Positions 4,837 through 45,500 of a stretch of DNA of 45,500 bases are shown piece after piece. The stretch comes from a virus: positions 1 to 45,500 of the IMG/VR virus record IMGVR_UViG_3300049728_000065; one strand, given 5' to 3'. Numbering within the stretch: position 1 is the stretch's first letter; each line of letters begins with the position of its first letter. Position numbers and translations under genes: made by a program. The notes beneath the pieces are model-generated. The model saw only the letters and a list, made by a program, of their open reading frames with translations. It did no database searches and was not told where the DNA came from.

Positions 4837-5590
4837 CTATCGCGCATCCGCAACCTTTGCCTTGCTGTTCATGGGACCACCCTTGACTGGCAAGACCAAC
4901 TGGTTGTTTGAATTCCCTGACCTTTACGTCCTCGACTGCGACGACAAGATGGCCAACGCAATTCAGCGTCACAAAAACAAGCAATTCTGGTTTGACCGTG
5001 CTTTGGTCGATGACAAAGGTGTCCCCGTGCCTCCCGAACTTCGGTGGACTCACTGCACAAACTGCCTCAAAGCGGCGTGTGTGGACCCCAAGATCAAGAC
5101 CATCGGCATCGACTCTCTCACTCCATTTGCTGACTACTTGATCGCTCACATCCTTAACACCGGTAGTAAACTTATCATCGGAGGGATTAAGTGTATGGAG
5201 CAGCAGCACTGGACTCCATTCAAGATGCTGATGACTCAGTGCTTGATGATGCTCCGTGCAAGTGGCAAATACATCGTGGTGAATTGTCACGAAGCTACTG
5301 ACAAGGACGAGATCACTGGAGCAATGACCTACAAACCAATGATCTCAGGCCAACTCAAAGACATCATCACAGGGATGTTTACCGACAACTGGCACGCTGA
5401 AACCAAACAGTCCTTCCTCGAAGGCAAAGTAGTGACCGAGTACTTCGTCCGCACCCAACCCACTGCTCGTATTGCTCTGGGCAACTCCCTTGGATTGCCG
5501 ATTGAGTTCAAACCCACAGCAGATGTACTAGCCAAGTATTTACCGGGCAACGCACCCAGTGCGTTGCCCATTAAACCCACGCAGGGTTAA
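4820..5590 (+). CDS. Sak4-like RecA-fold ATPase (recombination)
   Basis: The 256-aa product carries a Walker A, GPPLTGKT (residues 19-26), and a Walker B-like TIGIDS (94-99) in the arrangement of the small phage RecA-like ATPases (AAA_24 / Sak4 group). A Cys pair (HCTNC, residues 79-82) sits between them. These proteins anneal or pair single strands with the help of an SSB, which matches the next gene. The start at ATG 4820 lies inside the end of the preceding gene; the conserved part begins within 20 residues, so a later start is unlikely. It lacks the C-terminal extensions of bacterial RecA. Confidence 0.85.
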   Translation: MHPSTNYRASATFALLFMGPPLTGKTNWLFEFPDLYVLDCDDKMANAIQRHKNKQFWFDRALVDDKGVPVPPELRWTHCTNCLKAACVDPKIKTIGIDSLTPFADYLIAHILNTGSKLIIGGIKCMEQQHWTPFKMLMTQCLMMLRASGKYIVVNCHEATDKDEITGAMTYKPMISGQLKDIITGMFTDNWHAETKQSFLEGKVVTEYFVRTQPTARIALGNSLGLPIEFKPTADVLAKYLPGNAPSALPIKPTQG

Positions 5591-5633: not shown

Positions 5634-6092
5634 ATGGCACTATTACCAACCCAAATCGACGTCGACCTCACCACAGTCGACACTTCCTACCCCGTCCTCG
5701 CAGCTGGTGTCTACCCGTTCAAGGTGGACACCGCCATTGTCAAACCCAACAAGGCCAACACCGGCCACTTGTTGGAGCTTGACTGTGAACTCCTCGTAGA
5801 TGCGACAGACTCCAAAGGCAAGCCGATTAAAGCGGGTTACAAAATGACCCACCGCTGCGGCCTTAGTCCGACCGACAAGTACTCGCTCGAAGACATCGCG
5901 AAGAACGTGGCCACGATCCAAGACGCAATCTTGGGTCACCGTGTTGCGCTCGACGCGTTCGACACCGACATGCTAATCGGCCAGCGGTTCATCGCCAAGA
6001 CGAAGGTCACGGCGGAGACCAACGAATACCCCGAGAAGGCCGAGTTCGGTCGCCTCGTGGCCAAGGACGGTAGCCACGGGGCACAGCAGTAA
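5634..6092 (+). CDS. SSB-like protein (DUF669-type), 152 aa
   Basis: The 152-aa product has a beta-rich core beginning AAGVYPFKVDTAIVKPN and GHLLELDCELL, typical of the OB-fold-like proteins (DUF669 and relatives) that follow Sak4 or RecT-type genes in phages. It then has a helical segment with DIAKNVATIQDAILG and QRFIAKTKVTAE. A role as single-strand binding partner of the upstream ATPase is inferred from context and layout. It lacks the acidic DDDIPF-type tail of bacterial SSB. The 43-base gap upstream is A/C-rich without a Shine-Dalgarno site. Confidence 0.65.
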   Translation: MALLPTQIDVDLTTVDTSYPVLAAGVYPFKVDTAIVKPNKANTGHLLELDCELLVDATDSKGKPIKAGYKMTHRCGLSPTDKYSLEDIAKNVATIQDAILGHRVALDAFDTDMLIGQRFIAKTKVTAETNEYPEKAEFGRLVAKDGSHGAQQ

Positions 6093-6104: not shown

Positions 6105-6452
6105 ATGGCAACTAAATGCAGCAAGAAAGGTGTCAAGTCGGCACCACAACCTTCAGGGATTCCCTCTGTTGAAGAGCGAGTTGATCGTCTCGAACGTATC
6201 GAGAACGATCGCAACCACAGCACGATGGAAATGGTCGGTAAGTCCATTCCTGAACGCAAACCCACGCTGATCGAAAGTGCCGAGCGTGTGCACACCCTAC
6301 AGCACCGGGTTAATGAAACCCGTGCGCGGTTGAAGGACGCGGAGAACGAAGTCATTCGCACGCGCGAAGGACTGCACGCTCTGCTTCTTGAACACATGGC
6401 GGTCGTCGCCAAGATGTCCGCCGAGGCGGGCCTGTCGATGCCCATCAGCTAA
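6105..6452 (+). CDS. Coiled-coil protein, 115 aa
   Basis: The product has a short basic N-terminus (MATKCSKKGVKSAP) and then almost continuous heptads: VEERVDRLERIEND, VHTLQHRVNETRARLKDAEN and EGLHALLLEHMAVVAKM. It is 12 bases after the SSB-like gene and clearly in the same transcript. No domain is recognised. Oligomerising scaffold or accessory replication roles are possible. Confidence 0.75.
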   Translation: MATKCSKKGVKSAPQPSGIPSVEERVDRLERIENDRNHSTMEMVGKSIPERKPTLIESAERVHTLQHRVNETRARLKDAENEVIRTREGLHALLLEHMAVVAKMSAEAGLSMPIS

Positions 6453-6501
6453 CTCAGTTCCGCTGGCAGACCGGACCATAATTGTCTGCCACCCCTTTCT
6501 T

Positions 6502-7968
6502 ATGCTTATCACTGACATTTTTATCGCTGAACGTCTTCGTGAAGACCTAGGCGACATTCAGTCCTTAATGGACTCACTCGAAACTCATGGCATCATTCAT
6601 CCTATCGTCATCGACCAAAACAATCGTCTGGTGGCAGGCGGTCGACGAACCCACGCTGCTGTTAGCCTTGGGTGGACTGAGGCTTTACCAGCTAACTTAT
6701 GTGAAGTTCGAAATGAATCTGGAGAACTCACTGGTCACCGCATTGGCGTACTGCCCTTTAATTACAAGCACACACTTTCCTTGGATCAACTGCGCGAATT
6801 TGAGCTAGAGGAAAACATCCGGCGCAAGGACATGACATGGCAAGAAAAGACCCTAGCCATTTGTGACATCCACTCTCTCAAACAAATGAACTCTGCTCTC
6901 GCCGGCAAGCAATGGGGCGTGCGTGAGACAGGTGAACTCCTTAACGTTCACTACGCTTCGGTCCAGCACGCCACCGTAGTAGGTCGTGCGCTCCGCGCCA
7001 AAGACCCGGACATCCTTGCAGCTTCCACTTTTATGGAAGCGTACAAACTTGTCTTCAAAAAACGTGAAGACGAAGCCAAGAAACTCCTTGTGACTTCTAC
7101 CTCTGGCGTCGCAATGATCACCACCGAACGCGTCGAAGACGCAGAATCGCTTGAAGCGGCAGAGTCCAGTGTAGAAAATCAACAGGACCAGCCGGGCGAA
7201 CAGGTGGCACCCACCAAAATTGCGGTGGTTGACCTGAGTAAGTTCATCTTCAAAGGTAATTGTATTGATGTGATGAACTCGCAGCCGGAAGGGTGGGTTG
7301 ATCACATCATTACTGACCCTCCTTATGCCATTGACATGGGAATGCTCGATCAAGGTAACACCGGGATGAAGAACATTGGGGATGTGGCACCAGAGCATCA
7401 AGTGGAGGACAATAAACAGCTACTCAAAATCTTTTTGCGGGCGGCGTACCGCTCATTAAAAGACAAGGGGTTCTGTGCCCTTTGGTATGACTTAGACATG
7501 CACGCTAAGCTAATGTCGTGGGCAGGTGATGTAGGGTTTACGGTGTGCCGGTGGCCGGTAATTTGGTGCAAACCGCAAGGGATGAATCAAGCCGCAGGGT
7601 TTAACTTTACCAAAGCCACCGAAGTTTGTATGATCCTACGCAAGGGTAATGCAACCCTTGTGGAGCACCAACCCTTGAACTGGCGGATGGTGGAAAAAAG
7701 TGAGGAGGACAAACTCCGCTTCGCCCAACACCCGTTTGCCAAACCGCTTGCACTATGGGGTTGGCTTATAACTGCGTTGACTCTTCCCTCTGCCACGATA
7801 CTTGACCCCTTCGCCGGCTCCGGGTCTTGTCCAATAGCGTGCATGAAAAACAACCGGCGGTGGAAAGCTATTGAAGTCTCACCTCTGCACCAACCGGATT
7901 TGACTCGTGCGGTCAAAGAAGAACTGGGAACTCTTTTCAAGGGCAATGTAAAATTCATCAACGAGTAG
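6502..7968 (+). CDS. ParB-like domain fused to a beta-class DNA methyltransferase
   Basis: The 488-aa product has a ParB/Spo0J N-terminal domain: LITDIFIAERLRED, the VAGGRR box at 44-49 and ELEENIRR at 101-108, followed by a helical DNA-binding part to about 180. A linker rich in Glu, Ala and Gln (about 205-240) leads to VDLSKFI (243-249). The methyltransferase then shows motif IV DPPY (272-275) before the AdoMet motif DPFAGSGS (435-442), the order of beta-class N6-adenine or N4-cytosine enzymes. ParB-methylase fusions are known from phages and plasmids. It probably methylates phage DNA at a sequence I cannot predict. ATG 6502 is chosen because ParB homology begins there; the upstream open frame looks non-coding. 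Confidence 0.88.
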   Translation: MLITDIFIAERLREDLGDIQSLMDSLETHGIIHPIVIDQNNRLVAGGRRTHAAVSLGWTEALPANLCEVRNESGELTGHRIGVLPFNYKHTLSLDQLREFELEENIRRKDMTWQEKTLAICDIHSLKQMNSALAGKQWGVRETGELLNVHYASVQHATVVGRALRAKDPDILAASTFMEAYKLVFKKREDEAKKLLVTSTSGVAMITTERVEDAESLEAAESSVENQQDQPGEQVAPTKIAVVDLSKFIFKGNCIDVMNSQPEGWVDHIITDPPYAIDMGMLDQGNTGMKNIGDVAPEHQVEDNKQLLKIFLRAAYRSLKDKGFCALWYDLDMHAKLMSWAGDVGFTVCRWPVIWCKPQGMNQAAGFNFTKATEVCMILRKGNATLVEHQPLNWRMVEKSEEDKLRFAQHPFAKPLALWGWLITALTLPSATILDPFAGSGSCPIACMKNNRRWKAIEVSPLHQPDLTRAVKEELGTLFKGNVKFINE

Positions 7969-7978
7969 ACTCTTTTCT

Positions 7979-8158
7979 ATGGAACAAACCTATGTAACTG
8001 TCGGAGATACAATGTATGAAGTCCGATACAACCCAGCCACTCTTGTGGTAATGGCAGTGATCGCCTTCCGTGACGGGCGAATTGGCGAACCAGTGGAGTT
8101 CGATGACCTCGACCTACCAAATCAACACGTTATTCTCAACAAGATACACGGATTCTAA
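7979..8158 (+). CDS. Small hypothetical protein, 59 aa
   Basis: ATG 7979 follows TCTTTTCT, and the TAA at 8156-8158 shares its last base with the polymerase ATG, giving tight coupling. The product starts MEQTYVTVGDTMYEVRYN and contains VVMAVIAFRDGRIGEPV and DDLDLPNQHVILNKI, so it is a compact acidic alpha/beta protein with no obvious motif. The overlap with both neighbours and the even codon use support it as a real gene. Confidence 0.7.
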   Translation: MEQTYVTVGDTMYEVRYNPATLVVMAVIAFRDGRIGEPVEFDDLDLPNQHVILNKIHGF

Positions 8159-10875
8159 TGGCTGAACTGCCTTCCAACTTAGCTAATGTACATTTGCCCG
8201 CGCCACGGGCAGCACGTGCCGTCCCCAATGAATACCCTACAATTCAAGGAACCCCCTACCGAATCGCAATTATTGGTGAAGCTCCCGGTGCTGACGAAGA
8301 TCAGTGTGAAGTTCCTTTCTCCGGGACTTCTGGGAGACTCCTCAACGCCCTTTTGTCGAACTTAGGTATCCTCCGAGGGGCGTGCCTTGTCGGGAACGTC
8401 TGCCAAATACGTCCTCCCGGAAACGACATTCAAAAGTTTCGGTGGGATGGTGACGAAATCCAATCTGGGTTGGATGTTCTTCGTAGAGATATTGCTGTAT
8501 TTAACCCTCATCTTTGTCTTCTACTTGGCAAGTCGGCGCTTAAAGCAGCAACAGGCGAGGACCGTAGTATCCAAAGTTGGAGGGGAAGTCTCTTTGAGTC
8601 CAAGCTCATTGGGAGTCCTTTCTTTGGACGAAAGTGCCTTGCAACTATTCACCCTGCGGCAGTGCTGCGAATGTATCAATGGATGCCGTACTTGCGGTTT
8701 GATTTACAGAGAGCGCGTGAAGAAGGGCAATACCCTTCCCTTTCTCTGCCGCAAAGACACTTTGACCTTAACCTATCGGCAGCGGAAATCATCGAACGAC
8801 TTACCCGCCTAAACGAAAGCCATGAAGATGTCTGGATCAGCTTTGACCTCGAAGGTTATTGGGACAGGCTCACTCGCTATTCGATTTCCACAGACCCGTC
8901 TACTGGGTTCATTGTGGATTTTACAGAAGGTGAGTTTGGTAACTACTGGTCGACCGAAGACGAGATCAGGATTTGGCAAGCTACTAGTGCATTGGCCTAC
9001 AATCCACGTAAGAAAAAGGTATTGCAGAACTCCTTGTATGACGCATTTGTTCTGGCGTATGGACATAAAATTTTACTACGGAATGTGTGGTGGGATACCA
9101 TGCTCGGCCACTGGGAACTTTATTGTGAGTTTGAAAAGAACCTCGGGCTGCAAGCAAGTATCTACACCAAGGAACCCTATTGGAAAGAGGACAGGGTAGG
9201 AGAAGAACTTTTAACTCGCAAACGGTATTGCTGTACTGACAGCGCGGTGACCGAAGAGATTGCATTGGTGCAGCAAAAGGAATTGAAAGACCTGCCAGCC
9301 CAAATGGCTCACTTTCAATTCAATATGGAGTTGCTTAACCCACTCCTTTATATGGAGTTGCGAGGTATGGCTTACGATTCTGTTGCGGCTAAAGAAGCAC
9401 TCGCAAAAACCAAAGAAGAATACTACGCTCTTCAACACCGACTCAACTGCATTGCAGGTAAACCCCTCCAAATTACTTCTTATGACCAAGCACTCAACCT
9501 TGTCAAAAGTATGTGCTGCAAAAAACGCGGCATCGACGACATCAAAACCTTTGACCAGTGTGTCCTCTCCTCGCGCAAGGACGCACTCGACGGCTGCCAA
9601 GAGGCGGTTGAAGTTCTCAAGGCTACGGTCCTCATTGGTACTCTTCCTAACGAGAGTCAACTTGGACGAATTTCGTCAGCACTAAAACTCCACCTTAACG
9701 TGGAGTCGAACCCACAAATCTGCGATTTCCTTTACCGGCAACGCAGATTTCCTGTACAATACAAAGAAAAAGCAGATGGCACCCCTGGTGAGACTGCTGA
9801 CGTCGGGGCTATACTTGAACTCTACCGAACCTCCAAAGACGATGTCCTCAAACTTATCCTCAAACTTCGCTCACTCCTTTACTGGATCGAGACTCTATCC
9901 ATTGCAACCGACGCAGATGGACGTATCCGTTGCGGCTACAACCTTGTTGGGACAGAGACCGGACGTCTTAGTTGTAGTTCCTCCCCAACAGGAAGTGGAT
10001 ATAATTTGCAGACAGTCACAAAGAAGCTCAGGTATCTTTTTACTGCTGATCCAGAGTATTACTTTTTTCAGTGTGATCTTGCTGGTGCAGATGGATGGAC
10101 GGTTGCTGCGCACTGCGCTCGGCTTGATGATCGGACTATGTTGGATGATTATTTGTGCGGCCTTAAACCCGCAAAAATTCTTGCCCTCATGTACGATAAG
10201 GGTAAAGACATCAACAAATGTAGCCGGGAAGAACTGAAAGAACTTTGCAAAGAAGTTGATGGGGATGGGTGGTTGTACTTTGGTTGCAAGCGGGTGCAGC
10301 ACGGGACGAACTATATGATGAAGCAGCACACCATGTCAAAACAAATCTTAAAGGACTCTTTCAAGATGACTGGTGAACCAATCTTCTTGGAACCTGCACT
10401 GTGTCTTTCACTTCAAAACCTTTACCTCTTACGTTACTATGGCATACCGCTTTGGCAAAACTGGGTGGCGGATCAAGTCCTTCGGTATGGTGCTATTACT
10501 TCGGCGTCAGGTCACACGCGTCATTTCTACGGACGCATCAAAGACGTGGGAGGTAAGCTTAATCATGAAACGTGGAAGGCTGCGCTCAGTGAAGAACCCC
10601 AAGCTAACACTACTTACGCTTGTAACCTGGCGCTCCATAGGCTGTGGCATGACCCAGATAACCGATTCGCAGACGGACGTCTCATTGTTGAAAATCTCCA
10701 TCAGGTTCACGACGCCCTTAATGGACAATTTCCGCAAGCGTACACAGATTGGAGTGTGGATAAAATACGAAGCTATTTTAAACCTTCGATCAAGATTTCA
10801 GGGATGGACATTTCCATTCCTTTTGAGGGGAAGTACGGCCTATCTTGGGGTGGGAAAGCCGTAGGAGAAATTTAA
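8158..10875 (+). CDS. DNA polymerase A with N-terminal uracil-DNA-glycosylase domain
   Basis: The 905-aa product combines three parts. Residues 1-190 match family-4-like uracil-DNA glycosylases: GEAPGADED (40-48), PFSGTSGRLLN (53-63), CQIRPPGND (82-90), LLLGKSAL (121-128) and H165 in IHPAAVLR. The Fe-S cysteine pattern of that family is not evident. Residues about 225-390 form a 3'-5' exonuclease with D230/E232 (FDLEG), a NSLYDAF segment and YCCTDSAVT. The C-terminal half is a family A polymerase: motif A in CDLAGADGW, motif B-like CKRVQHGTNYMMK and motif C with His851-Asp852 (QVHDAL). UDG-like domains fused to phage PolA are known, as I recall for SPO1-type polymerases. It is the replicative polymerase; the UDG part may recognise or remove uracil ahead of synthesis. 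Confidence 0.92.
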   Translation: MAELPSNLANVHLPAPRAARAVPNEYPTIQGTPYRIAIIGEAPGADEDQCEVPFSGTSGRLLNALLSNLGILRGACLVGNVCQIRPPGNDIQKFRWDGDEIQSGLDVLRRDIAVFNPHLCLLLGKSALKAATGEDRSIQSWRGSLFESKLIGSPFFGRKCLATIHPAAVLRMYQWMPYLRFDLQRAREEGQYPSLSLPQRHFDLNLSAAEIIERLTRLNESHEDVWISFDLEGYWDRLTRYSISTDPSTGFIVDFTEGEFGNYWSTEDEIRIWQATSALAYNPRKKKVLQNSLYDAFVLAYGHKILLRNVWWDTMLGHWELYCEFEKNLGLQASIYTKEPYWKEDRVGEELLTRKRYCCTDSAVTEEIALVQQKELKDLPAQMAHFQFNMELLNPLLYMELRGMAYDSVAAKEALAKTKEEYYALQHRLNCIAGKPLQITSYDQALNLVKSMCCKKRGIDDIKTFDQCVLSSRKDALDGCQEAVEVLKATVLIGTLPNESQLGRISSALKLHLNVESNPQICDFLYRQRRFPVQYKEKADGTPGETADVGAILELYRTSKDDVLKLILKLRSLLYWIETLSIATDADGRIRCGYNLVGTETGRLSCSSSPTGSGYNLQTVTKKLRYLFTADPEYYFFQCDLAGADGWTVAAHCARLDDRTMLDDYLCGLKPAKILALMYDKGKDINKCSREELKELCKEVDGDGWLYFGCKRVQHGTNYMMKQHTMSKQILKDSFKMTGEPIFLEPALCLSLQNLYLLRYYGIPLWQNWVADQVLRYGAITSASGHTRHFYGRIKDVGGKLNHETWKAALSEEPQANTTYACNLALHRLWHDPDNRFADGRLIVENLHQVHDALNGQFPQAYTDWSVDKIRSYFKPSIKISGMDISIPFEGKYGLSWGGKAVGEI

Positions 10876-13094: not shown

Positions 13095-14318
13095 ATGTCC
13101 TTCTTGGACGATTACAAAACCTTCACCTCTGGTAATGAAGCGCACCCAAATTACCACCTTTGGTGTGCTCTTGTTGCTCTCTCTAGTATTGTTAGTCGAC
13201 GCGTCTACATTGAACAGGGGTTCTTTCGAGTGTATGCGAATCTTTACGTTGTGCTTGTGGGTCCTCCGGGCAATCGTAAGACCACCGCGATGAGCGTCAG
13301 CAAGACCTTAATGCGAGAGTTGAAGACCATTCCCATGACGGCTGAGTGCATTACCAAAGAAGCTCTTGTACAATCAATGGCAGAGAACGAGCGGGCGTTC
13401 CAACCAGCACCAAAAGACGGTGCGGCCCTTATGCCTACTGTTTACACTCCCTACACCGTTTGCGTCACAGAGCTTTCTCAATTTGTCGGTGCCTCGAAAG
13501 AGAACATGATCGACTTCCTCACTACCATATATGACCAAGACTTCTACGAAAACAAAACCAAGAACAAAGGAACCGACACAATCATTGGTCCTTACCTTGT
13601 CGTGCTGGCCTGTACCACCCCAGCCTGGATCACCGCTCGATTACGTGATGACGTTATCTCAGGGGGATTTTCCCGCCGTGCATTATTCGTTTACGAAACC
13701 GAACGCGGAGAACGTATTCCATTTCCTGAAGTTACTGCAGAAGCCCGACTGGCTTGGGACCGAGTTGTGGAATACAGTCGTAAGCTTCTTGAAGTCAGTG
13801 GAGTATTTCAATGGGACCATAAAGCTAAAGACTGGTATTCCCATTGGTACAAAACTCTTGACATCCCAGACGACCCCACGGTCCAAGGGTACTACGAAAC
13901 CAAGCACATGCAACTCCTTAAAGTTGCGATGCTCGTCTCGTGCTCGGAATCCACTGACTTAATCCTGCGGATCGACCACCTTAAACGTGCGCTTGAAATC
14001 CTTGACCACATGGAGATCAATCTCCCGCGAGTGTTTGAGGGGATTGGGCGAAACGAACTTAACGCCATTGCGTCAAAAGTTATTGAAGTCGTTACCCGTG
14101 GTAATGGGTGTATGCCAGAGAAGAAAGTCTACGCAGTAATGTTTGCAGAAGGCACTCAAGGCGAACTGGACCAAGTCATAAACCACCTAATTTCTAGTGA
14201 CAAGCTCAAGCGAAGTAATCTCGAAAAGACAATCACCCGAGGGGGGGAACAAACCAAAACCGTAATTCAAGTACTCCACCTACCTTCATGGAAACCAGAT
14301 CAGCCCAAGACGTCTTAA
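13095..14318 (+). CDS. DUF3987-like replication ATPase
   Basis: The 407-aa product has a Walker A GPPGNRKTT (56-64) preceded by HLWCALVALSSIVSRRV, then TVCVTELSQFVG as a Walker B-like strand and VVLACTTPAWI. SGGFSRRALFVYE fits the arginine-finger region. This is the arrangement of DUF3987 proteins, which act as the helicase part of phage or plasmid primase-helicases. The last 100 residues look like a winged helix (GCMPEKKVYAVMFAEG, LDQVINHLISSDKL). No primase domain is visible here or in a neighbour, which is a gap in an otherwise complete replication set. Confidence 0.75.
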   Translation: MSFLDDYKTFTSGNEAHPNYHLWCALVALSSIVSRRVYIEQGFFRVYANLYVVLVGPPGNRKTTAMSVSKTLMRELKTIPMTAECITKEALVQSMAENERAFQPAPKDGAALMPTVYTPYTVCVTELSQFVGASKENMIDFLTTIYDQDFYENKTKNKGTDTIIGPYLVVLACTTPAWITARLRDDVISGGFSRRALFVYETERGERIPFPEVTAEARLAWDRVVEYSRKLLEVSGVFQWDHKAKDWYSHWYKTLDIPDDPTVQGYYETKHMQLLKVAMLVSCSESTDLILRIDHLKRALEILDHMEINLPRVFEGIGRNELNAIASKVIEVVTRGNGCMPEKKVYAVMFAEGTQGELDQVINHLISSDKLKRSNLEKTITRGGEQTKTVIQVLHLPSWKPDQPKTS

Positions 14319-39004: not shown

Positions 39005-40489
39005 TTAGATTTCGATGTCTCGAAGGTTGATACCCAAGATGTCTTGATCACCTATGGGTTGGTTGTCACTGTCATTCTTCGGGACATAGATGGGTTCATC
39101 TAGCACCGAACGATAAAGATTTTCCATCATGTGATCGTTCTTATCCACCGGCTTGTTCTCTTTGTCCCAAGCCCACCGCTTGATTTCCCACAAGAACCGC
39201 ACACACCGAGGACTCACCATCCACTGAGGGATTGGTGCTTTCCACTCTTGAATCACCCGCTTGATCCCACGGGTCTTGTCCTTTGTCGCCTTCTCAAGCC
39301 ACACCCCTTTGGCTGCAAAGTCATCCGCCCAGCACGTCCCAGTTAGCTCGTCTTCGATAAACGCACAAGGATCAATCCGGGCGCGCACAACATTATACCC
39401 AGCGGTGATTGCGTGGATTTGATCACAGACGTCGGGGATATCGTACCTCCCCCAGATTTCATCAAAAATAAACTTCCTTCCCAAAGGAGAGACCGCGGTA
39501 AAAAGGACGGCGATAGGAGTTTGGGCGTGGGGATCAACGTGGTAGTAGATCGAGTAGTCTTTCGGGGGAGAGTTGAAATCATCCCAACCAAGGGGCAGGT
39601 CGTAATAGATGTGGCGTGAGTTGAAGTCTTTATAAACCAACCCAGCAAACGCCAAAGGTATTCCACTCTCGCGACACTCTCTTTCCTCATCAGGCAACCC
39701 AGACAAATAAAGCTCTGCGTCCTCTTTCGACAAATACGGGTTGTCCCATATGCTTCCGTTCACCGACCAAAAGTGCACATTGTGCACTTGACTCTCACCT
39801 CTACTCACCATTTCCCTCGCATCCTGTTCCCCATAGAACATGTCGTAAATCCACGGCTCACGTAACGGCGTCAACGTGAAGTAACTCTTTCCCCCACGAT
39901 CCACAAGTCCCCGCGCCGCAGAGTCATACATTTCTTTCGGGCATGGCTCATCCACATGAATCACATCCCAGTCACTCGACTCAGTGCCTTGAGGATTCGC
40001 CATGAACGACTTGACGGTGTCAAAGCGTAACAGACTTCCGTTTTCGCACTCGATGGTTTCGATAGCGCCAGAATGGTTCCGCTTCTTCGACTTAACGAAA
40101 CCACGAGGGAAGAGTTTCCACAACTTACCCGGATTAGCTCCGCGTTCAGAGGTGAAGATTTCATCGACTTTGTCCCAGTCGGTGGTGATGACTAGAACTT
40201 TTTGGGGGCGTTGGGGGATGCCTAGGGTTCTTGCTGGGTCAGTCTTTGGGTACCACTCTCTTTCTCCCCTTACTTGCGCCACGTCCTCTGCGGCACCACA
40301 GTCTGACTTACCGAACCGATTCCCTGCGAACACTGCTCGACGTTTGAAGTTACCTGCACGATGGAAAAGGTCTTGCTTTGGGTGGGGACGATAATAGGCA
40401 ATACCAAAGTCTTTTCTGCGTTGCTCAAGTTGCTTGAGCAAGACATACTCTTGTTCTTTGAGCTTTCGAAGTTCGGCCGCTTGGCTCAC
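39005..40489 (-). CDS. Terminase large subunit
   Basis: The 494-aa product has the packaging ATPase: Walker A-like GNRFGKS (56-62) preceded by RRAVFA, and Walker B VIHVDEP (176-182) followed by CPKEMYDSA. The C-terminal nuclease region shows YYHVDPHAQTPIAVLF, FIFDEIWGRYD and ARIDPCAFIED, which supply the expected acidic residues. It cuts and packages concatemeric DNA with the small subunit, whose gene overlaps it as ATGA. Length is usual for the family. Confidence 0.93.
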   Translation of the reverse strand: MSQAAELRKLKEQEYVLLKQLEQRRKDFGIAYYRPHPKQDLFHRAGNFKRRAVFAGNRFGKSDCGAAEDVAQVRGEREWYPKTDPARTLGIPQRPQKVLVITTDWDKVDEIFTSERGANPGKLWKLFPRGFVKSKKRNHSGAIETIECENGSLLRFDTVKSFMANPQGTESSDWDVIHVDEPCPKEMYDSAARGLVDRGGKSYFTLTPLREPWIYDMFYGEQDAREMVSRGESQVHNVHFWSVNGSIWDNPYLSKEDAELYLSGLPDEERECRESGIPLAFAGLVYKDFNSRHIYYDLPLGWDDFNSPPKDYSIYYHVDPHAQTPIAVLFTAVSPLGRKFIFDEIWGRYDIPDVCDQIHAITAGYNVVRARIDPCAFIEDELTGTCWADDFAAKGVWLEKATKDKTRGIKRVIQEWKAPIPQWMVSPRCVRFLWEIKRWAWDKENKPVDKNDHMMENLYRSVLDEPIYVPKNDSDNQPIGDQDILGINLRDIEI

Positions 40490-41094
40490 TGGACCGCTCC
40501 TTCTAGTTTGGCCTGCCTGTCCCGCAAAGCCAGCAACTCCCGCTCCAACCGATCTTGGTCCCTTGGCGCCTCAACCTCTTTGGTCGTCTCCATTTTCTGT
40601 GTGGGTTTACCCCACAACCTATCCTGCAACGAATTACACGCATTGATGCGTTCGCTTGGTTTGGCGTTCTTGTCCCGCATCACCGAAATCAAAGTGTTGA
40701 TACAATCCAGTGCTGCCGCCTTTAGGGTCTGCGTCACAACATCCACGCCCATCCTATGCATCAACTCCTTGCAAAAATCTTGTGCCCAATCCAACTCCAT
40801 TATGGCATTTACTGTCGCCACTGAACTCAAACTCAACTCCGCTACCTCACTACTCCCCATTCCCATTGCAGTCAACGCCACAATCAACCTATGCTTGTAA
40901 TCCTCCCGACTCAAAACCCTTATCTCTTTTGTTGGGTCCGGTTGAATTCCTACACCAGACTCTAGCAGCTTCGCCTGTGGCGAGACAACACCTACCTCGG
41001 CAAGGAGGTTGTCAAGGAACTTGCTTTCACCCTCGTCCGCTTGTGGGGAGGAGAGCGCAACTTCCAATGGGTGTAAAGGTGCTATTTCTGGCAC
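40486..41094 (-). CDS. Terminase small subunit-like protein (GTG or non-standard start)
   Basis: From GTG 41094 the product is 202 aa, with REDYKHRLIVALTAMGMGSS and a following SLSSVATVNAIMELDWAQDF as a helix-turn-helix-like region, then a long helix (CNSLQDRLWGKPTQKMETTK, RLERELLALRDRQAKLEG). The 21 codons before the GTG are open and encode a basic RRPKGR stretch typical of small terminase N-termini. They hold no ATG, GTG or TTG before a TGA; only an ACG. A non-standard start is therefore possible. It overlaps the large subunit by ATGA and is the first leftward gene. Confidence 0.75.
   Translation of the reverse strand: MPEIAPLHPLEVALSSPQADEGESKFLDNLLAEVGVVSPQAKLLESGVGIQPDPTKEIRVLSREDYKHRLIVALTAMGMGSSEVAELSLSSVATVNAIMELDWAQDFCKELMHRMGVDVVTQTLKAAALDCINTLISVMRDKNAKPSERINACNSLQDRLWGKPTQKMETTKEVEAPRDQDRLERELLALRDRQAKLEGAVQ
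40936..40960. repeat. 25-bp imperfect palindrome, copy 5 (inside terminase small subunit)
   Basis: GTCCGGTTGA-ATTCC-TACACCAGAC. In the leftward frame it encodes SGVGIQPDP, similar to the SGLKNQPDQ encoded at copy 2, so the site forces similar residues on two unrelated proteins. Confidence 0.75.
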
Positions 41095-41180: not shown

Positions 41181-41365
41181 TCTCATATCCGCTGGACGAA
41201 CCTCTGGTCTTTTTGCTGCTTGAAATCTCATATCCTACGCACACAGCATACTAGGGTGGCCATCGAAAGCCAACATAAATGATATGAGATTTTTTACTTT
41301 ACCAGTTACACTTTTCGCAATTTCTCATATCATTTGCGAGGATATGTGGATATGTGGATATGAGA
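41181..41365. promoter_or_regulatory. Operator/iteron cluster I in the divergent gap
   Basis: The 331-base gap between the first leftward gene (41094) and the first rightward gene (41426) contains TCTCATATC at 41181, 41226 and 41323 and its complement GATATGAGA at 41281 and 41357. A 13-bp inverted repeat AAATGATATGAGA (41277-41289) / TCTCATATCATTT (41323-41335) spans two of them. Immediately right, GATATGTG is repeated twice in tandem (41341-41356) and followed by GATATGAG. This is what a divergent promoter-operator or iteron set looks like. No clean -35/-10 pair could be assigned. Confidence 0.75.
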
Positions 41366-41425
41366 ATATCTTTGGGGGTGGTGAAAGAAGTTGAAAAAGT
41401 GGTTTCGATGGTAAGGAGGATATAA

Positions 41426-41638
41426 GTGCCAAGTCGACCCTCGCGTGGCAAAGGTACCCTTTTCAAAAAAACTATAGCAAAAAGAATGGTCAAAAGCATT
41501 ATGGAAATTCCACTAGCCACCTCAAATCCGATGGTCGGCATAGCAGGATGCCGAAAGAAAGGCAACATCGCAAAGCGCGATGCAATGATCTTTGACATTT
41601 CAAGCGCCGCTTGCATGGCGAGAAAGATTGCAAGCTAG
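41426..41638 (+). CDS. Small basic protein, 70 aa, first rightward gene
   Basis: GTG 41426 is preceded by AAGGAGG seven bases upstream, one of the strongest ribosome sites in the window. The product is basic (PSRPSRGKGTLFKKTIAKRM, GCRKKGNIAKRDAM) with a central hydrophobic SIMEIPLATSNPMVGIAG. Directly behind the operator cluster, it could be a DNA-binding regulator, but no helix-turn-helix is evident. Confidence 0.55.
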   Translation: MPSRPSRGKGTLFKKTIAKRMVKSIMEIPLATSNPMVGIAGCRKKGNIAKRDAMIFDISSAACMARKIAS

Positions 41639-41698
41639 AGGTCAGCCCAAGCTCCTTGGATTCCCAAGCAAGCCATGCGGGATTCACCTCGAAAAGTT

Positions 41699-41968
41699 TG
41701 ATAGGTCATTCCCGCTTAGAAAGACGGGAATAAATGAAGATTAAAAATACCATTAAAAAAACCTGCATATTAGAAGCTGACTGGATTGCCTTTCTCAAGG
41801 AAGATAAGGTGATTGCAGAATATGTAACCACCTTGAAAGAGGAGGAAATGTACTTAGTCAAGGATTGGCTCCAAACGCCAATGACCATTGCTCAATTAAA
41901 GCCAAGAGTCAAAGCGTTTATCCGCTAATAATCTTGCCTAGCGAAAGCTAGGCGGGAATGACCTATCA
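41699..41968. repeat. Mini-cassette with 17-bp inverted ends and REP-like hairpins
   Basis: TGATAGGTCATTCCCGC (41699-41715) is exactly repeated in inverse orientation at 41952-41968. The left end continues as TTCCCG...CGGGAA; the right end is joined to a perfect hairpin GCCTAGC-GAAA-GCTAGGC (41936-41953). TCATTCCCGC-type palindromes are a widespread bacterial intergenic repeat. One gene lies inside. I see no target-site duplication. A non-autonomous transposable cassette or REP-flanked insertion is the likely reading. Confidence 0.65.
41734..41928 (+). CDS. Small protein inside the inverted-repeat cassette, 64 aa
   Basis: The product KIKNTIKKTCILEADWIAFL, then VIAEYVTTLKEEEMYLVKDW and a basic end PRVKAFIR is mostly helical and has the balanced composition of a real protein. 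There is no Shine-Dalgarno site. It occupies nearly the whole cassette between the 17-bp ends. No family recognised; DNA-binding or toxin/antitoxin-like roles cannot be told from sequence. Confidence 0.55.
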   Translation: MKIKNTIKKTCILEADWIAFLKEDKVIAEYVTTLKEEEMYLVKDWLQTPMTIAQLKPRVKAFIR

Positions 41969-41988
41969 TTCAAGAAAAGCTAGATGGA

Positions 41989-42062
41989 CTATTTGCAATC
42001 TGCCGATTCGACTTGCAAGCAAACGCTTGCGGAGTTGGCAGATAAACAGATAGGACAAATAG
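41989..42062 (+). promoter_or_regulatory. Nested hairpin leader of the 95-aa gene
   Basis: Three nested inverted repeats: CTATTTG (41989-41995) / CAAATAG (42056-42062), ATCTGCC (41998-42004) / GGCAGAT (42037-42043), and GCAAGC (42015-42020) / GCTTGC (42025-42030) around AAAC. The outer arm ends four bases before the ATG at 42066, so folding would hide or present the start. Confidence 0.55.
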
Positions 42063-42065
42063 AAT

Positions 42066-42353
42066 ATGAGCGATAGCAATTTTCAACTCGCAATCAAAGC
42101 TGCAATCGACTATGTCAAAAGCAAGGAGATTAAAGCGGGCTTGACCCAAGCGCAGCAAACCGGCTGCATGGTTCATGCGCTGATCGAGCTAGGCATAATC
42201 GACGGCGATAAGGTCGAAGACAAAAAGACGGCGTTTGAAGCGCTTTACGCGCTGGCGAATGGGTCGGCTCTGCGGCAGAAGCTGGAAACCGCAGAGGTTC
42301 TAGCGAAGACGGAATCCGGTCGCAAGGCGGTCGACTTTAGCAAGTTCACCTAG
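42066..42353 (+). CDS. Helical protein ending in VDFSKFT, 95 aa
   Basis: The product starts SDSNFQLAIKAAIDYVKSKE, continues LTQAQQTGCMVHALIELGII and KKTAFEALYALANGSALRQK, and ends GRKAVDFSKFT. It is wholly helical. Its C-terminal peptide is the same type as in the 84-, 89- and 167-aa proteins of the same block. It lies between a nested hairpin leader and a strong hairpin. No family recognised. Confidence 0.7.
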   Translation: MSDSNFQLAIKAAIDYVKSKEIKAGLTQAQQTGCMVHALIELGIIDGDKVEDKKTAFEALYALANGSALRQKLETAEVLAKTESGRKAVDFSKFT

Positions 42354-42373
42354 CAACAACATGAGGATGCCAA

Positions 42374-42404
42374 AGGGCGATAGGGTTCAACTCCCTATCG
42401 CCTT
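42374..42404 (+). terminator. Perfect 10-bp hairpin after the 95-aa gene
   Basis: GGCGATAGGG (42376-42385) pairs with CCCTATCGCC (42393-42402), extended by one wobble and one A-T pair, loop TTCAACT. It follows the stop by 22 bases. No T-run follows, so termination may need a factor. Confidence 0.6.
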
Positions 42405-42499
42405 GGGGCAGTAGAAAGACAAACCTATTATGACCAAAGATTTCCATCCCGCTTTATGTTGGCAATTCGCTTGCTTCCTTTGTCGAAGCGATCTCCCCA

Positions 42500-43022
42500 T
42501 CTCATATCGCTCGGCTTGCTTGAAGTGGCGATTGCCATTCCTCACCCTGGAAGAAAAGAATCTCATATCCCTTCTCACTTCGATGGTGGCCACTGATCAA
42601 TCTCTCCTATCAATCCAGCGGAATTGAGAGAATTTCCACTCCTCACTTTATCCATTTAAATTCTCATATCATTTTTGCGTCTATGGCATAAAATCCCTCT
42701 GCGTGGCCCGGTGTGTGGGTGAGTGAATGACCCACGCAGGCCTGTCTATATGATATGAGAATTTATCCGCCCATGGTTATCCCCCTCCCCCATAGTCCAC
42801 CATCCCCTCTCTTATCCTTATATATATATACAAAAAAAAAATAATAAAATGATATGAGAGTTCTTTGCTCGTGTATAGCGAATCCCCGTGGACTAGGCGC
42901 AAGCGCCGTGGACTATGGCAGCAAAAAATCTCATATGAGAGAAGGGCATAGGGGGGGCAGTGGGCCACCCACAAAGCCACGCACGGAGCCACACAGAGCG
43001 CATATGAGATGGCGCAAGCGCC
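42500..43022. promoter_or_regulatory. Operator/iteron cluster II with AT-rich tract: candidate replication origin
   Basis: The stretch 42405-43134 has no convincing gene. It carries TCTCATATC at 42500, 42561 and 42662, GATATGAGA at 42752 and 42851, the full palindrome TCTCATATGAGA at 42929-42940 and a shortened copy at 43001. A T/A-only and A-rich tract (about 42816-42850) lies in the middle. CCATAGTCCAC (42790-42800) and GTGGACTATGG (42908-42918) form an 11-bp inverted repeat around it; GTGGACTA is repeated at 42888. GGCGCAAGCGCC occurs at 42896 and 43011. CTGCGTGG/CCACGCAG (42699-42706/42732-42739) adds another. Iterons plus an AT-rich unwinding tract suggest an origin; a regulator array is the alternative. 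Confidence 0.65.
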
Positions 43023-43049: not shown

Positions 43050-43134
43050 AAGCAATGCAAAGCACAACCAACAACAACAACCAAATTAGTTCCTATAAGG
43101 AGCATAGCAAGGTACAAGCAAAAAAAAATAATTT

Positions 43135-43950: not shown

Positions 43951-43996
43951 GGCGCAAGCGCCTTGATTCTTGTCCCGTTGAAATTTTATACCAGAC
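43951..43996. repeat. Composite site: GGCGCAAGCGCC plus 25-bp palindrome copy 7
   Basis: GGCGCAAGCGCC (43951-43962) starts immediately after a stop codon and is followed nine bases later by GTCCCGTTGA-AATTT-TATACCAGAC (43972-43996). The same pairing of the two elements occurs at 43011-43049. It lies 13 bases before the next ATG. Confidence 0.7.

Positions 43997-45002: not shown

Positions 45003-45500
<498 letters not shown>

Follow-up and report, generated by a model that had tools for sequence, protein, structure and literature searches.

The window analyzed here comprises an entire IMG/VR virus record (45,500 bases) from an uncultured phage of ~45 kb, and its two ends do not overlap. The record encodes a T7-like portal, a large terminase (TerL), a UDG-PolA polymerase and a Sak4-like protein, together with a Dda-like helicase and a DUF3987/primase-type protein (13095-14318). 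Late genes run leftward from the small terminase subunit gene, terS (40486-41094), as far as ~15 kb. Early genes start at ~41.7-43.1 kb and run rightward up to the record end, and replication genes run rightward from the record start to 14.3 kb. An element of nested palindromes sits at the divergence of the leftward late and rightward early genes. The features of this region are as follows.

40486-41094, minus strand: small terminase subunit gene (terS), start of the late operon (phrog_2538, E=7.6e-4; homolog of the ORF that lies upstream of TerL in related loci)
41181-41365, no strand assigned: cluster I, five exact 9-mers just upstream of terS (motif positions; counterpart in L042)
42066-42353, plus strand: ORF p95, 95 aa, of the NxSxx[RK]Q small-protein family beside the element (HMM and motif searches)
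42500-42569, plus strand: two outlying 9-mers (42500, 42561) of cluster II (motif positions)
42657-43009, no strand assigned: whole nested-palindrome element, candidate origin (nested inverted repeats; fold; inverted-repeat frame equaled in 0/500 shuffles; same architecture and place in relatives)
42657-42672, plus strand: left arm of a perfect 16-bp inverted 9-mer pair (inverted-repeat listing)
42697-42738, plus strand: outer left arm, GTGG/GTGA-rich with a ~4-nt period, limits approximate (inverted-repeat listing, fold)
42750-42765, minus strand: right arm of the perfect 16-bp inverted 9-mer pair (inverted-repeat listing)
42790-42800, plus strand: middle left arm CCATAGTCCAC (direct reading; paired in the fold)
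42807-42816, plus strand: innermost left arm CTCTCTTATC, a one-mismatch 9-mer (direct reading, motif positions)
42818-42847, plus strand: AT core, candidate DNA-unwinding element, (TA)n followed by A10 at 42832-42841 (AT-richest 30-mer, longest A/T run)
42851-42860, minus strand: innermost right arm GATATGAGAG, an exact 9-mer on the minus strand (direct reading, motif positions)
42888-42918, plus strand: middle right arm GTGGACTA-GGCGCAAGCGCC-GTGGACTATGG (direct reading; hairpin 12-mer counted)
42929-43009, no strand assigned: TCTCATATGAGA palindrome (42929-42940) and the last 9-mer variant (43001-43009, minus strand) (motif positions)
42960-42998, plus strand: outer right arm, CCAC-rich, limits approximate (inverted-repeat listing, fold)

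Elsewhere in the record, a ParB-like N-terminal domain is fused to an N6/N4 DNA methyltransferase (6388-7968), and a uracil-DNA-glycosylase-type domain is fused to a family A DNA polymerase (8158-10875). Another protein apparently spans the record ends (45003-45500 plus 1-290); its long Ala/Tyr/Thr tail is of low complexity and is encoded by CACCGCCTACACCGCC-type repeats. A small inter-operon gene is surrounded by inverted repeats (41699-41719 / 41948-41968; 21-bp arms, 95% complementary), and the small inter-operon genes of the related locus L042 are likewise bracketed by long ones (5775-5814 / 6195-6237 and 6238-6261 / 6434-6457); in both, the bracketed genes resemble tiny cassettes. A host look-up in bacterial genomes returned only short contigs in MAGs labelled Acidobacteria, Binatia and one other, and no firm host.

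The 9-mers, the palindrome, the AT tract, the CCATAGTCCAC/GTGGACTATGG arms and the GTGGACTA-GGCGCAAGCGCC-GTGGACTA string of the original prediction were all found where it had placed them, the string at 42888-42915 and GTGGACTATGG at 42908-42918. The 30-mer starting at 42818 is the AT-richest of the record (97% A+T), and A10 (42832-42841) is the longest A or T homopolymer. An inverted pair absent from the earlier list, CTCTCTTATC/GATATGAGAG, brackets this core, and the innermost stem consists of a 9-mer facing a one-mismatch 9-mer across it. Inverted complementarity across A10 exceeded that of 500/500 dinucleotide shuffles of its flanks; an equally high score was reached at 6 of 1186 other positions of the record, mostly neighboring palindromes. 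As a single strand, 42690-43010 was predicted to fold into nested stems (z = -2.66), with none of 100 shuffles as good. A second A run, A9 at 43120, was without an inverted frame. An Rfam search returned nothing, and BLASTN of a 4.8-kb region against isolated phages gave no match. The GGCGCAAGCGCC hairpin occurred three times in the record, versus 0.31 expected with one mismatch allowed. Its three copies are identical (42896-42907, 43011-43022 and 43951-43962), and the third directly follows a stop codon and has a terminator-like score.

All 13 TCTCATAT sites of the 45.5-kb record fall within 41181-43009 (1.83 kb, clusters I and II), compared to 0.55 expected genome-wide, and a count of 13 was reached in 0/100 shuffles. 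Exact TCTCATATC 9-mers number five in 42500-42859 (42500, 42561 and 42662 on the plus strand, 42752 and 42851 on the minus strand), while three copies of the one-mismatch TCTCATATG make up the perfect palindrome TCTCATATGAGA (42929-42940) and the minus-strand site at 43001. Spacings were irregular (61, 101, 91, 99, 77 bp, etc.), without the helical phasing that is a trait of plasmid iterons. In addition, four of the record's 18 copies of TTATCC lie on the same strand in the 170 bp left of the AT core (42648-42817). The TCTCATATC 9-mer was missing from nearly all TerL relatives searched; more than one copy was found only in the nearest relative, L042, where two copies form an inverted pair upstream of terS that matches cluster I. 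By this comparison the 9-mers are lineage-specific, and the 9-mer was rejected as a conserved feature because nearly all relatives lack it. Poor conservation of the 9-mers had been named as part of what would count against the original prediction; that part was borne out, yet the element survives.

Relatives were gathered by TerL searches (36, then 80, then further loci; 27-62% identity), the DNA polymerase having yielded none when used as a handle. The layout, an A/T run between late and early genes framed by inverted arms, recurred in about 20 independent terminase relatives. In most relatives covering the region, the longest A/T run lay upstream of terS in the inter-operon space and was usually the only run of ≥9 in its record; it coincided with the AT-richest 30-mer in 6/6 near-complete genomes checked, with a tie at one other place in G002. 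The units of the arms were often 4 nt long (GGTC, GATT, GTGC or GTGA). The inverted frame was above 500/500 shuffles in 15 loci, comprising the analyzed record and L002, L007, L008, L012, L014, L016, L023, L042, L049, L052, L058, L071, L076 and L087. It beat nearly all 500 shuffles in L063, L034 and L011 and was not significant at the runs of L005, L019 and L027. When the same rule was applied to later-fetched loci, three of four testable runs were framed (L140, 1/300 shuffles; L143 and L204, 0/300 each), and the frame was not significant in L250, a distant relative (33% identical to the query). Placed on the TerL tree, loci with the element are spread across most lineages around the analyzed record. 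A related sub-clade of 19 rows has neither the element nor a p95-type gene, indicating that not all of the wider group depends on the element. In L042, ~18 tandem TTGTC units were observed immediately outside the element (5253-5342). At the element's position in L058 and L064, ~3.5-4.1 kb upstream of TerL, there are imperfect palindromes of very great length, their 115-150-nt arms separated by only ~60 nt.

The proposed candidate origin with an AT tract and nested palindromes is strengthened by an architecture kept in relatives, but the 9-mers were not kept. The conserved feature is architecture rather than sequence, and a cis element recognizable in this way is missed by homology searches. 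Arm sequences differed between genomes, and the best match of the left arm was its own right arm in 18/21 loci. Self-match of the flanks was above that of the late genes at lag 8 in 21/21 and at lag 4 in 18/21, and the strand folds of L023 and L042 had z about -5. Both arms are rewritten together between genomes, that is, by concerted evolution, and they would either pair with each other or be binding sites whose specificity changes jointly. Complete turnover of the arms, like the very long palindromes of L058 and L064, is expected if arms are copied onto each other, and a fast-changing palindrome might be kept by recombination or template switching with no dedicated role in replication, packaging or transcription. 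We consider such a structural or selfish origin of the pattern very improbable, given that about 20 divergent genomes keep the position, the AT core and the linked gene and that there is usually one run per record.

The linked gene, p95, encodes a protein predicted by AlphaFold to be all-helical (pLDDT 85 for the best of five models, 65-70 for the others). Fold and family searches gave no significant match for p95 and no recognizable DNA-binding domain or initiator homolog. Its family diverges strongly, with a mean column identity of 22% in the alignment. Homologs detected by HMM search lie beside the element in L042, L014, L016 and L071, and more were found in loci whose contigs do not cover the element. 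Of the ORFs lying no more than 1 kb from the element on its terL side, 10/160 carried the NxSxx[RK]Q motif, compared with 0/2400 in the remainder of these loci. The strict motif was present in 12/24 covered loci with the element vs. 0/33 without it (Fisher p = 4e-6); these motif counts overstate the certainty because the motif itself was defined on these data. The list of element loci came from them as well, with the exception of L054, L140, L143 and L204, and L054, L140 and L143 provide independent cases for the link between motif and element. In L054, an element with CGTG-type arms had escaped the run-length filter and was located from the position of the p95-type gene. Wherever it was recognized, this orphan gene was close to the element, within about 700 bp. 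Its strand relative to the element varied, which argues against the element being solely that gene's own operator, and in L143 it lay on the element's other side.

The position of the element exactly between divergent early and late operons, with a small protein gene linked to it, also speaks for a role as an early/late transcription switch. Here, a small phage regulator would bind inverted operator arrays and the A-tract, bend the DNA, repress one divergent promoter set and activate the other, as in the p4/p6 region of phi29. That region shares divergent early/late promoters, inverted repeats with A-tracts and a small phage regulator, and the p4 sites join inverted repeats and A-tracts in a comparable setting (PMC3100819). 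Several sigma70-like matches overlap the 9-mers, but promoter-like matches were not commoner than in shuffles, and the p95-type genes occur in both orientations with respect to the element. Known small operators do not resemble arms of 25-150 nt with a 4-nt period, and both geometry and protein differ from those of phi29. Two-mismatch matches to the p4-type CTTTTT-N15-AAAATG numbered 5 in the record vs. 7.7 expected, with none in the element; the p4 consensus was rejected on these grounds. In our judgment a transcription switch is unlikely, but it is a serious rival reading of the element.

The element lies between terS and the first early genes, a location that it shares with the inter-operon region of tf/LUZ24-like phages, whose genomes are likewise ~45 kb with early and late blocks meeting mid-genome. 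In Pseudomonas phage tf (Krylovvirus), whose TerL is only ~25% identical, this region holds 186-bp terminal repeats and host (sigma70) promoters, and the authors of that work report palindromes at the termini. Long terminal repeats also occur at the corresponding place in Arthrobacter phage Adat (DTR of 1551 bp) and Microbacterium phage Shocker (484 bp), so that the genome ends of distant TerL relatives fall in this region beside terS. In view of these three phages, the claim that the control region had no known counterpart was only partly right. Additionally, two near-complete contigs, G014 and G015, begin or end at the A-tract, where ~0.11 such cases would be expected among 26 contigs. These genome and contig ends make it a serious rival that the element is a packaging site, at which terminase would recognize the nested palindrome on concatemers and cut at or near it, giving direct terminal repeats. 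Several observations make us consider this reading unlikely. The tf, Shocker and Adat regions have no A/T run of the element's kind, and that of tf has no A-tract framed by inverted arms. Other genes and a distance of 3-6 kb separate the element from TerL in several loci, among them L011, L076 and L005. G014 circularizes through the A-tract with a 50-nt overlap, and its contig end therefore need not be a physical end; a homopolymer with inverted repeats can also break assemblies for technical reasons.

We infer that the element at 42657-43009 is most likely the replication origin of the phage, a reading to which we assign a probability of about 0.5. Since relatives keep the layout with wholly different sequence next to a small gene, copying of the phage DNA probably starts there, and the AT core, symmetric repeated sites, linked small protein and operon divergence together fit the anatomy of an origin. 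Lambda and iteron origins are basically built from an AT core and repeated initiator sites (PMC5043065). Similar to lambda-type and plasmid iteron origins (ori-lambda, P1, RK2), the element has repeated candidate sites by an AT-rich tract and a linked gene that possibly codes for the binder. The adjacent AT-rich region contains the AT-richest 30-mer of the record, and the array of initiator-binding-like candidate sites is represented by the 13 TCTCATAT sites here and by 4/8-nt periodic arms in relatives. It differs from iteron origins in that its sites form inverted arms around the AT tract with a ~4-nt period and no helical phasing, and it has neither a known initiator nor DnaA-box enrichment. 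No DnaA boxes were found within 400 bp of the element of the analyzed record, and there was no general enrichment in relatives; with no DnaA-box cluster, a DnaA-dependent origin was rejected. GC skew had been suggested as a check on the origin, and an extremum did lie near the element in most genomes, but it does not settle the matter: it is confounded with gene direction, its sign at the element is opposite to the usual leading-strand excess of G, and it was rejected as origin evidence for both reasons. An additional lead comes from HSV oriS and the AAV Rep-binding tetranucleotides, in which an AT core within inverted binding sites and a 4-nt repeat period occur as in the element; the viruses and proteins are unrelated, and no HUH or UL9-like protein was recognized among the ORFs scanned.

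If the element is the replication origin, the inverted arms would be repeated binding sites of a phage-encoded protein, with the p95-type neighbor as the first candidate. Binding on both sides would strain the AT core until it opens, and the DUF3987-type primase/helicase (13095-14318) and the UDG-PolA polymerase would then be loaded, leading to bidirectional replication. The TCTCATATC 9-mers may represent lineage-specific sites of the same or another regulator, present both at the origin and in the neighboring terS/early promoter region (cluster I).

No published description of such an element was found in the open-access literature. Each of its parts belongs to a known kind; what appears new is their combination, with a homopolymer core, inverted arms of 4-nt period that evolve in concert and an orphan linked protein. 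Tentatively, the element might define a previously undescribed class of phage origin in a large uncultured phage group, with an A/T homopolymer core, concertedly evolving 4-nt-period inverted arms and a new NxSxx[RK]Q small-protein family, although we consider this less likely than not. Taken together, the findings offer a widespread group of uncultured phages a testable origin candidate along with a candidate protein partner. Recognition based on architecture would help the annotation of many environmental phage genomes, and the element and its neighbor gene may constitute a natural system for the joint change of a site and its putative binding protein.
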